Source: Sphingomonas sp. (lineage in GTDB: Bacteria > Pseudomonadota > Alphaproteobacteria > Sphingomonadales > Sphingomonadaceae). From it: a stretch of 64,000 nt of DNA. The stretch covers positions 1-64,000 of the forward strand of contig NZ_JAHBZJ010000012.1 in the NCBI RefSeq assembly GCF_019635455.1, read 5' to 3'. The translations under genes were made by a program, and so were the position numbers. Below, in pieces: positions 45,701-59,503 of this stretch (positions are counted from its first letter, which is position 1; each line of letters opens with the position of its first letter). The notes below the pieces were generated by a model. That model was not told the origin of the DNA. It saw only the letters and a list, made by a program, of their open reading frames with translations, and made no database searches.

Positions 45701-46666
45701 ATGACCGACAAAGCCGAACTCGACGCCCTGCTTGCCCCGATCGCCGCCGGTCGTGCGACGACCCGCGTGGAGGGGGAGCGGGCGAGCATCATCCTCGACG
45801 TGACCGGCCTGCCGCCGGCTGCGCAGGACGCGCTGGAGGCCGATGTGCGCGCCGCCGCGCGGGGCGTGGCCGGCATTGGCGAGGTGCGCGTTGCGCGCAC
45901 CGCCCAGCGGGTCGCCCGCCGGCTGATCGCGGTCGCGAGCGGCAAGGGCGGGGTGGGGAAATCGACCCTGTCCGCCAACCTGGCGATCGCGCTCGCCCGT
46001 GCGGGGCGCAAGGTGGGGCTGGTCGATGCCGATATCTACGGCCCGTCCCAGCCGCGGCTGATGGGGATTGAGGGGCGCAAGCCCGAGGCGCACGACCAGA
46101 AGCTGGTGCCGCTCGCGACGCGCCATGGCGTGCCGCTCCTGTCGATGGGCGGGCTGGTCGCGGACGGCCAGGCGATTGCCTGGCGCGGCCCGATGGCCGC
46201 CGGCGCGCTGACCCAGCTGGTCGATGCGAACTGGGGCGCGGCCGACACGCTGGTGCTCGACCTGCCCCCCGGAACCGGCGATGTTCAGCTGACGATGATC
46301 CAAAAACACCGGCCCGACGGCGCGGTGATCGTCTCGACCCCGCAGGATCTGGCGCTGATCGACGCCGCCCGCGCGATCGACCTGTTCCGCAAGGCGGGGG
46401 TGCCGATCATCGGGCTGGTCGAAAACATGGCCGGCTATGCCTGTCCCCATTGCGGCGAGGTGTCGGACCCGTTCGGCCAGGGCGGGGCAGAGGCGGCGGC
46501 GGCGCGGCTGGGCATCCCGTTCCTCGGCCGCATCCCGCTCGACATCGCGATCCGCACCGCGTCCGATGCCGGCGCGCCACCGGCCGCCGGGAACGGGCCG
46601 GAGGGCGCCGCGTTTGCTCCGGTGGCCGAACTGGTCGATAACTGGCTCAGAACGCAAGGAGGCTGA
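45701..46666 (+). CDS. Mrp/ApbC-type Fe-S cluster carrier ATPase
   Basis: A 321-residue P-loop protein. A short N-terminal MIP18-like domain precedes the deviant Walker A GKGGVGKST (81-89), the VDADIYGPSQPRLMG switch and the cluster-binding CPHC (ACPHCGEVSDPFG). These proteins carry Fe-S clusters to apoproteins. The start at 45701 (MTDKAELD) is chosen over ATG 45689 because of the family start; both are in frame. The next gene follows after 4 bases. Confidence 0.9.
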   Translation: MTDKAELDALLAPIAAGRATTRVEGERASIILDVTGLPPAAQDALEADVRAAARGVAGIGEVRVARTAQRVARRLIAVASGKGGVGKSTLSANLAIALARAGRKVGLVDADIYGPSQPRLMGIEGRKPEAHDQKLVPLATRHGVPLLSMGGLVADGQAIAWRGPMAAGALTQLVDANWGAADTLVLDLPPGTGDVQLTMIQKHRPDGAVIVSTPQDLALIDAARAIDLFRKAGVPIIGLVENMAGYACPHCGEVSDPFGQGGAEAAAARLGIPFLGRIPLDIAIRTASDAGAPPAAGNGPEGAAFAPVAELVDNWLRTQGG

Positions 46667-56937: not shown

Positions 56938-57105
56938 ATGCCACCGCCAAACCCTGCCGCGCGCTGCCACGAGGGCATTCACCGCCCCCGCCGGCGCGAC
57001 CGGCTCAAGCCCGGCGAACGCCGGGAAGTCTGCCGCGATTGCGGATGCGACCTGATCCACAGCGGCGTGACCGGCCGATGGCGCTTCTCCGGCGTCATGG
57101 GCTGA
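56938..57105 (+). CDS. Small Cys-rich protein (zinc-ribbon-like)
   Basis: A 55-residue ORF. It carries CHEGIH near residues 10-15 and CRDCGCDLIH at 32-41, two metal-site-like clusters. An RBS, AAAGGAG, sits 6 bases before the ATG. The protein is basic and likely binds zinc or nucleic acid. No family was recognised. It is close to the EcfG promoter but ends 11 bases before it, so it is a separate unit. Confidence 0.6.
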   Translation: MPPPNPAARCHEGIHRPRRRDRLKPGERREVCRDCGCDLIHSGVTGRWRFSGVMG

Positions 57106-57115
57106 TCGCGCGTCT

Positions 57116-57140
57116 GGAACCACGTCGTCCAAAGACCGTT
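57116..57140 (+). promoter_or_regulatory. EcfG-type general stress promoter
   Basis: GGAAC at 57116-57120 and CGTT at 57137-57140 are separated by exactly 16 bases, matching the alphaproteobacterial EcfG consensus GGAAC-N16/17-CGTT. It is about 30 bases upstream of the ATG at 57171, and an RBS (GGGAGG) lies between. It is the only such match found in intergenic regions of the window. Confidence 0.8.
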
Positions 57141-57170
57141 TCGACCCGGTAACTTAATCGGGAGGTTCGA

Positions 57171-57347
57171 ATGTCGGACGAAAAGGTGACCGTGGTGAAG
57201 ACGGGTGGATCGGGCGGGGCGATCGCGGTGATCGTCGGGATCGTCGCGCTGCTCGCGATCCTCTACGTGGTGTTCGGCACCAATTTGCTGAGCGGCAAGA
57301 CCGACAAGATCGACGCCGACGTAACGATCGAGGCGCCGAAAAGCTGA
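57171..57347 (+). CDS. Small single-span membrane protein, EcfG-controlled
   Basis: A 58-residue protein. Residues 17-36 (AIAVIVGIVALLAILYVVFG) form a membrane span. The N-terminus is charged (MSDEKVTVVKTGG) and the C-terminus is polar and charged (SGKTDKIDADVTIEAPKS), so it is probably an inner-membrane stress protein with a free C-terminal tail. GGGAGG lies 6 bases before the ATG. It is preceded by a strong EcfG promoter. No family recognised. Confidence 0.75.
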   Translation: MSDEKVTVVKTGGSGGAIAVIVGIVALLAILYVVFGTNLLSGKTDKIDADVTIEAPKS

Positions 57348-57375
57348 TCGATCCGGGCGGTTGCCGGCGCGGGGA

Positions 57376-58836
57376 TCAGCCCGCCGCCGGCAGCCGCAGC
57401 CGCACGAGCAATCCGCCCAGATCCTCGCTTTCCTCAAGGCTGACCGTGCCGTCATAGATTTCCGCGACATCGCGGACGATGGCCAGGCCAAGGCCGGTGC
57501 CGGGCTTGCCGCTGTCCAGCCGCACGCCGCGATCAAAGATGCGGATACGGTCGGGCTCGGGAATGCCCATGCCGTCATCCTCGACCATGATCTCGACGAA
57601 TCCCGCCTCGGCCTGCACCGTCACGAAAACGCTGCCGCCGCCATATTTCGCGGCATTCTCGACCAGATTTCCCATGATCTCGTCCAGGTCCTGTCGCTCG
57701 ATATGGGCGACCAGGTCCTTCGCTCCATCGACGTCGATGCGCACATGCGGGTACAGGCGCGATACCGCGCGTTCGACCGATTCGACGCTCGGCCACACCT
57801 GAGCACGGCTGTGTGCGCTGCCGCGACGGCCGACCGCACGCGCGCGGGCAAGGTGGTGATCGACCTGCCGGCGCATCGTCCGCGCCTCGCGCACGACCGT
57901 CGCGGGCAAGTCGTCGGCCCGCGCGGTCGCGGCGTTCATGATGACGGTCAACGGCGTCTTCAGGGCATGGGCCAGGTTGCCGGCATGCCGCCGCGCCTCC
58001 TCCGCCTGCTTGTCGTTATGCGCGACCAGCGCGTTCAGCTCCTCGACCATCGGCGCGATTTCGGCGGGCATCGCGCCCTCGATCCGCGAGGTCTCTCCAG
58101 AGCGCAGGCGCTGAATCGCCTGACGCAGCTTGCGCAGCGGCAACAGCCCGTACCAGGTCTGGAGCGCGGCCATCAGGATCAGGCCGGCGGCGAGCAGCAG
58201 GAAGCTGCGCACCAGCGTCCGGCGCAGCGCATCGATCTGCGCGTCGAGCACGTCGCGGGTTTCGGCGACCTGAAACCGCCAGCGTACCGGCGATCCCGGA
58301 ATCCGCACGTCGCGTTCGACAACGCGCAGCTTCTGGTCGAGCTGCTGGCTGTCATAGGTGTGCAGTTCCAGGTCGCTGTGCTGCCGGCCGATATCCAGCC
58401 GGCGGTCCCATAGCGAGCGGGAGGGGAAGGGGTCGAACCCCCGTCCCGATACCTGCCAGTAGAGGCCCGAATAGGGTTCCAGGAACCGCTGGTCCGACAA
58501 CTGGCGGTTGAACGCGACATTGCCGTCCGGATCGATCTCCGCCGACACGATCAGCGAGGTCAGCAGATATTCCAGCTGGCCGTCGAAATTGCGGGTGATC
58601 GCGCCGGTCAGCACCCGGTCGAGCGCGAATCCGCCGCCGGCGAGCAACAGCGTGATCCACGCCGCCGCGATCAGGATCATCCGCCGGCTGAGCGACCCGG
58701 TCGATGGCGTATAGCTGCGCGGCGCGGGATCGCCGGGGGCAGGGGTCAGCGGCGGCGGCGCGTCGTCCGGCGCGTGCAGGCGGCGCACGAACGGAAAGCG
58801 GCGATCGATCGTCCAGCCGGCGGGGCGGTCAGGCAC
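57376..58836 (-). CDS. Two-component sensor histidine kinase
   Basis: A 486-residue membrane kinase. Two spans (about 53-70 and 215-235) flank a periplasmic sensor loop. HAMP-like and HisKA regions follow with the phospho-His in NLAHALKTPLTVIM, then the ATPase (LVENAAKYGG; DDGMGIPEPD; GTGLGLAIV). The likely start is GTG 58836, overlapping the upstream response regulator stop by 8 bases; an ATG at 58893 would extend into that gene. It resembles PhoQ-type kinases and is downstream of the PepSY and regulator genes. Confidence 0.9.
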   Translation of the reverse strand: MPDRPAGWTIDRRFPFVRRLHAPDDAPPPLTPAPGDPAPRSYTPSTGSLSRRMILIAAAWITLLLAGGGFALDRVLTGAITRNFDGQLEYLLTSLIVSAEIDPDGNVAFNRQLSDQRFLEPYSGLYWQVSGRGFDPFPSRSLWDRRLDIGRQHSDLELHTYDSQQLDQKLRVVERDVRIPGSPVRWRFQVAETRDVLDAQIDALRRTLVRSFLLLAAGLILMAALQTWYGLLPLRKLRQAIQRLRSGETSRIEGAMPAEIAPMVEELNALVAHNDKQAEEARRHAGNLAHALKTPLTVIMNAATARADDLPATVVREARTMRRQVDHHLARARAVGRRGSAHSRAQVWPSVESVERAVSRLYPHVRIDVDGAKDLVAHIERQDLDEIMGNLVENAAKYGGGSVFVTVQAEAGFVEIMVEDDGMGIPEPDRIRIFDRGVRLDSGKPGTGLGLAIVRDVAEIYDGTVSLEESEDLGGLLVRLRLPAAG

Positions 58837-59503
58837 CGGCCTCCGCCGGTTCCTCAAGGCTGTAGCCAAGGCCGCGGATCGTCGTGATGACATCCGCGCC
58901 CAGTTTCTTGCGGATCCGCGTCACGAACACCTCGATCGTGTTGGAATCGCGATCGAAATCCTGGTCATAGATATGCTCGATCAATTCGGTGCGGCTGACC
59001 ACCTTGCCCTTGTGATGAAGCAGATAGGACAGCAGCTTATACTCCTGCGCCGTCAGCTTCACCGGGTCGCCGCCCTTGGTCACCTTGCCCGAGCGGGTGT
59101 CGAGCCGGATGTCGCCCGCGATCAGTTCCGCCGACGCATTGCCCGATGCCCGACGGATCAGCGCGCGCAATCGGGCGATCAGCTCCTCCGACTGGAACGG
59201 CTTGGCGACATAGTCGTCGGCGCCCGCGTCCAGGCCGGCGACCTTGTCCGACCAGCTGTCGCGCGCGGTCAGGACGAGCACGGGGGTGGTCTTTCCTTCC
59301 TTGCGCCACCGGTCCAGCACGGTCAGCCCATCGACCTCGGGCAGGCCCAGGTCGAGGACGATCGCATCATAGGTTTCGGTCGAGCCGAGGAAATGTCCCT
59401 CCTCGCCATCGCCCGCGGTATCGACGGCATAGCCCGCCCCTTCGAGCGTCGCCTGTAGCTGGTTGCGGAGATTGGGTTCGTCCTCGACGATCAGAACGCG
59501 CAT
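58829..59503 (-). CDS. OmpR/PhoP-type response regulator
   Basis: A 224-residue regulator. The receiver domain has the phosphorylation site D51 (AIVLDLGLPEVDG), an acidic pair near the start (VEDEP) and K in VAKPF. The C-terminal winged helix has TIEVFVTRIRKKLGADVITTIRGLGYSL. It is the partner of the histidine kinase just downstream (8-base overlap) and follows the PepSY gene by 32 bases on the same strand. Confidence 0.94.
   Translation of the reverse strand: MRVLIVEDEPNLRNQLQATLEGAGYAVDTAGDGEEGHFLGSTETYDAIVLDLGLPEVDGLTVLDRWRKEGKTTPVLVLTARDSWSDKVAGLDAGADDYVAKPFQSEELIARLRALIRRASGNASAELIAGDIRLDTRSGKVTKGGDPVKLTAQEYKLLSYLLHHKGKVVSRTELIEHIYDQDFDRDSNTIEVFVTRIRKKLGADVITTIRGLGYSLEEPAEAGA

Follow-up and report, generated by a model that had tools for sequence, protein, structure and literature searches.

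Does a promoter-like box ahead of a tiny open reading frame (ORF) on a Sphingomonas sp. contig drive a genuine stress gene and, if so, what might the product do? The box lies near the end of a window of 64,000 nucleotides, positions 1 to 64,000 of contig NZ_JAHBZJ010000012.1, which is the whole stretch of DNA that was analysed. A sequence-only reading had proposed that GGAAC-N16-CGTT at 57116-57140 perfectly matches the alphaproteobacterial general stress (EcfG) promoter, and that it stands about 30 bases before a tiny single-span membrane protein with its own ribosome-binding site (RBS). Read directly, the box is indeed a perfect match. It is followed, 30 nt after CGTT, by the ATG at 57171 of an ORF of 58 codons (stop codon at 57345-57347) that is preceded by GGGAGG and codes for a protein with one predicted helix. 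The protein and its close homologues are called family A below, and the features of the locus are collected in Table 1.

Table 1. Features of the family A locus and its flanks (window coordinates)
Feature	Position	Strand	Basis
EcfG-type -35 element GGAAC	57116..57120	+	sequence read directly
-10 element CGTT, spacer 16	57137..57140	+	sequence read directly
Ribosome-binding site GGGAGG	57160..57165	+	sequence
Family A ORF, 58-residue single-pass membrane protein	57171..57347	+	ORF, alignment, predicted structure, dN/dS
Intergenic hairpin that reaches into the final kinase codons; candidate terminator without T run	57357..57397	.	folding
Cys-rich 55-residue ORF; upstream context, bounding on the left the gap in which four relatives lack the unit	56938..57105	+	ORF, comparison with relatives
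Sensor histidine kinase gene, convergent; bounds the gap on the right, context outside the unit	57376..58893	-	Pfam domains, comparison

The motif alone, GGAAC-N16-CGTT, is not above chance and is weak in itself. The strict box (spacer of 16 or 17) has two matches in the window versus 0.73 expected, and 14 of 100 shuffled sequences reach two matches; the whole genome contains 30 matches versus 22 for the reversed pattern. Because these counts fail to separate the site from chance, placement and footprint were examined. An RBS-preceded start codon is found 10-70 nt downstream of 14 of the 30 genomic box sites, versus 3 of the 22 reversed-pattern sites (one-sided Fisher p = 0.012). Genes of the host genome behind such boxes include stress-type ones, coding for OsmC, a DUF4112 protein, a pyridoxamine-oxidase-like protein and a small DUF5670 membrane protein. 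The latter (G000:C14:206488, L061) has 47 residues, and its strict EcfG-type box lies 35 nt before the start codon. The second strict match of the window, at 46590-46614 (+), is found 56 nt before an RBS-preceded gene for a 146-residue protein with a CoA-binding domain.

To collect homologues, a profile built from four of them was searched against 295 genomes of the genus. It identified 18 places in 17 genomes at E <= 2e-19, the host genome included, the next match being at 7.9e-6; named hosts are S. mali, S. pruni, S. asaccharolytica and S. lycopersici, plus three metagenome-assembled genomes. As a close homologue is present in so few of the genus genomes, the gene is accessory. We read 17 of the 18 strong places, leaving out the second one of genome G190, and compared upstream regions of 110 nt, 16 of which are distinct within the genus. 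The strict box is present in five of them, GGAAC-N16/17-[CG]GTT in 15, and all 16 are covered when the -10 element is relaxed to [CGT]GTT. GGTT serves as the -10 element in ten of the 16 and TGTT in one, and the box is always located 23-35 nt before the start codon. Dinucleotide shuffles of the same regions contained a mean of 0.03-0.05 boxes and a maximum of two.

A wider search of 397 genomes of the family, from 96 genera, yielded 13 genomes with a match, which belong to three genera. Strict GGAAC-N16/17-CGTT was found in all 13 loci of two other genera, 28-40 nt before the start codon. Since these loci played no part in defining the pattern, they represent an independent test. All 29 distinct aligned upstream regions contain GGAAC as well as GTT, with C, G or T as the preceding base; column conservation was computed on the rows that contain the pattern, and no family A locus was read without it once TGTT was allowed. 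Conservation of the box before homologues is thus far above that of shuffled upstream regions, with the reservation that the 16 and 13 regions are partly non-independent, some of them sharing a neighbourhood, and that the shuffles ignore relatedness.

The ORF is likewise constrained. Compared with its two closest homologues, dN is 0.15-0.18 versus a dS of 0.57-0.88, with dN/dS of about 0.17 and 0.31; the coding sequence is under purifying selection. The possibility that a chance motif happens to precede a chance ORF draws on the expectation of about 0.7 motifs per window; nevertheless, both the footprint and purifying selection contradict it, and we consider it extremely improbable. The hydropathy of the protein reaches its maximum, 3.09, at residues 17-35. 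The AlphaFold2 model, computed from a five-sequence alignment, shows one helix at residues 15-40 and little definition in the tails (mean pLDDT 69). In alignment A1, the row of L003 lacks its first residue and that of L004 its last. No match over the curated cut-offs of Pfam-A or NCBIfam was obtained for the window protein, its homologues or the three branches described below, a sequence search of the PDB returned sub-threshold matches only, and literature searches brought up no paper that we recognised as dealing with this family. The earlier remark that such genes are poorly described agrees with these searches. Family A is a new family of small EcfG-linked membrane proteins that has no curated family model.

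In the general EcfG mechanism, active PhyR makes NepR release EcfG, and the EcfG-RNA polymerase holoenzyme initiates transcription some 7 nt after the -10 element. The host genome encodes NepR, PhyR, an EcfG-type sigma factor and an HWE kinase together, the kinase gene adjoining that of the sigma factor. Along with the footprint (15 of 16 regions in the genus, 13 of 13 beyond it), this lends strong support to the proposed EcfG promoter and to the reality of the small protein, as far as sequences can tell. We regard actual EcfG dependence in this strain as highly probable, and it is very likely that the gene is real, belongs to the stress response and has so far gone undescribed. Close to ecfG, a second short NepR-like protein is encoded at L140:5973-6182 (-) (IGVVLRDAYDRDQGLPDDMAQMLRRLN), with no match to the Pfam NepR model. 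It may correspond to NepR2 of S. melonis Fr1, which the covered parts of the literature on that strain present as a feedback regulator.

We then considered the neighbourhood. The stop codons of the small ORF and of the convergent kinase gene are 28 nt apart. The kinase has HATPase_c above the Pfam cut-off, with HAMP and HisKA just under theirs. Between the two genes a strong hairpin is predicted (fold of 57340-57420, -45 kcal/mol, z -2.83), which a scan for terminators with T runs did not pick up. Convergence with the kinase gene at so short a distance might suggest a regulatory link, in either direction, between the small gene and the neighbouring OmpR/PhoQ-like two-component system, in place of membership of the general stress response. 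However, 60 of 61 genus genomes have a match to the kinase, and at the 29 other kinase loci read neither a hydrophobic small ORF nor an EcfG-like box was found beyond its 3' end, while the box itself is of the EcfG type. A link to the two-component system is therefore very improbable. Synteny with the kinase was also rejected, as the kinase is conserved without the small gene in all 29 loci.

On the other side, the Cys-rich ORF is preceded by an RBS and contains CxxC motifs that look zinc-ribbon-like by eye; it has no family in Pfam or NCBIfam. It shares 68-75% identity with its counterparts in four relatives, each adjoining the same kinase gene, and has weaker matches elsewhere, so that at E <= 0.01 the total comes to 25 of 100 genomes, its own included. 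In these close relatives (G015, G026, G030 and G045), the Cys-rich ORF abuts the kinase gene with a short gap and the promoter-gene unit is absent. The gap of the window is about 270 bp long and corresponds to promoter, gene and hairpin. Elsewhere, family A genes are found next to CaiB-like, SDR, pyruvate dehydrogenase subunit, guanylate-kinase-like or LysR-type genes, names that come from reading protein ends with no family search behind them. Given the absence of the unit from the gap of four relatives and the other neighbourhoods of the homologues, the small protein is unlikely to act in connection with the adjacent histidine kinase. Moreover, the differing neighbourhoods imply that the box is not shared by way of a neighbouring gene and, together with the four empty gaps, that the promoter travels with its gene. 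A gain at the window locus looks more parsimonious than four losses. By extension, the stretch of about 270 bp could be a self-contained stress cassette, made up of EcfG promoter, microprotein and hairpin, which comes, goes and changes place between neighbouring genes in Sphingomonadaceae as one piece; the regulon would then grow through the transfer of finished promoter-gene units, and not through promoters evolving in place. We consider this idea rather unlikely; if true, a stress regulon can acquire genes together with their promoters.

Family A has relatives. Family A and two further branches, B and C, have in common an N-terminal TTVVERGGGGG-like motif followed by a helix. Family A could be aligned by hhalign with long forms in genus g80 over helix and tail (E 2.4e-15), with branch B over linker and helix (E 3e-11) and, more weakly, with branch C over linker and helix only (E 1.2e-6, probability 91). 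Chance similarity of Gly-rich and hydrophobic composition is disfavoured as the source of these alignments, since scores drop sharply when the alignments are reversed or column-shuffled; low complexity is the remaining caution. Branch B proteins resemble family A in their motif, single helix and strict EcfG box, and differ from it by a longer, A/K-rich tail, the similarity being limited to linker and helix. The box was found in all 11 branch B loci read, including that of the paralogue in the host genome (G000:C14), which lies downstream of ybaB, so named from its C-terminus with no family search behind the name. Branch C proteins are recognised by a FATGFWSA helix end and an LP.VDVSAKGG tail, neither of which is found in the window protein. 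Among nine branch C loci, three have GGAAC..GGTT, three have looser versions of the -10 element and three have no box. The 13 weaker loci (L111-L123) comprise ten of branch B, two of branch C (L118 and L120) and L116, which was left unassigned, probably because its stretch is short; L118 was missed by the start search and is counted from an earlier reading of the locus. The host genome also codes for a divergent branch C-like membrane protein (G000:C12:109680-109961, L137), with no GGAAC-type EcfG box directly upstream.

Promoter architecture and its conservation, a selected protein, the EcfG machinery and a single-span prediction are thus supported by computation. In our best reading, these genes form a Sphingomonadaceae family of small stress proteins that cross the membrane once and probably protect the envelope, and every member has an EcfG promoter to itself. 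The regulation is well supported, and the biochemical function is what we infer. Upon stress, PhyR would be activated and NepR would let go of EcfG; the EcfG-RNA polymerase would then begin the transcript near position 57147, some 7 nt past CGTT. The short mRNA would yield the 58-residue protein, to be inserted once into the cytoplasmic membrane, with a short N-terminus carrying a TTVV(E/K)TGGGGG-type motif, the helix at residues 15-40, and a conserved acidic tail (K.DADVKIETP) that would reside in the periplasm. The corresponding N-in/C-out topology is likely. The protein might build up in the membrane and protect the envelope in a non-enzymatic manner, altering the behaviour of the membrane or of membrane proteins under stress. 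That the locus is a self-contained, EcfG-driven stress gene for a single-pass, envelope-protecting membrane protein is, taken as a whole, probable.

The main rival to a protective role is a specific partner: the gene would be under the same stress control, and the helix would bind one membrane protein, be it a sensor kinase, a transporter or a protease, and alter its activity. The sequence-only reading had likewise suggested that the gene may code for a stress-induced regulator or protein tuner. Small membrane proteins that tune one partner include MgrB and AcrZ of E. coli. The size and single-helix design of the window protein match those of known tuners, and family members keep both the helix end (F-G) and the tail. 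Nevertheless, no partner gene travels along, as the neighbourhoods differ, the adjacent kinase does without the small gene in 29 of 29 other loci, and presence in 17 of 295 genus genomes fits poorly with the control of a core protein. We deem such a tuner rather unlikely, and envelope protection, as opposed to the regulation of one specific partner, about evenly poised. The protein could also be a hydrophobic growth-arrest peptide, slowing growth under stress through membrane depolarisation. It is short, with one helix and a stress promoter, and, according to the covered parts of PMC12719787, E. coli YohP lowers the membrane potential and protects. However, no antitoxin or antisense partner was recognised at the locus, and the tail past the helix is conserved and charged, which makes this option quite improbable. 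Envelope protection is our working hypothesis, with YohP and other small stress membrane proteins, as they appear in those parts of the literature, serving as the model.

How does family A compare with known EcfG regulons? In S. melonis Fr1, the covered parts of PMC6599016 give the EcfG motif as GGAAC-N17-20-GTT, mostly within 100 bp of the start codon, a distance with which the 30 nt of the window locus agree. About 40% of the EcfG-dependent genes of S. melonis are without assigned function according to these parts, and several hypothetical proteins are listed in the top 50. Fr1 gene #0098 shows a log2 change of -3.2 in the ecfG mutant. The box tabulated for another Fr1 gene, #2026 (Table 1 of that paper), was found in one of the 295 genus genomes, G107, at 35 nt before the ATG as tabulated, which suggests that G107 is a close relative of Fr1. 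The genus genomes matched by family A at E <= 0.001 do not include G107. It encodes a branch C protein, the box of which agrees with that of #0098 at 23 of 26 bases; the two boxes share a distance of 29 nt from the start. By way of this relative, #0098 of Fr1 probably belongs to branch C; the structure or role of these proteins is not mentioned in the covered parts of the paper. In the regulon of the general stress response of Sphingopyxis granuli TFA, the usual box is GGAAC-N16-CGTT, like that of the window, with a conserved -35 and a flexible -10 element, and the parts covered contain no mention of family A (PMC7083833).

Family A is a very small membrane protein family tied to EcfG by a deep footprint over three genera, and as such it offers a short list of stress-effector candidates and a clean marker of the EcfG regulon. 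In type, it resembles YohP and other small stress-induced membrane proteins of E. coli, which the covered parts of PMC12719787 describe as having a short single helix and being made under stress; the window protein shares the short length and, by prediction, the single hydrophobic helix. The likeness is one of description, with 27 residues for YohP versus 58 here. Within the host genome, a strict EcfG box likewise precedes the gene of the tiny DUF5670 membrane protein, which matches a Pfam family that has no match in the window protein.
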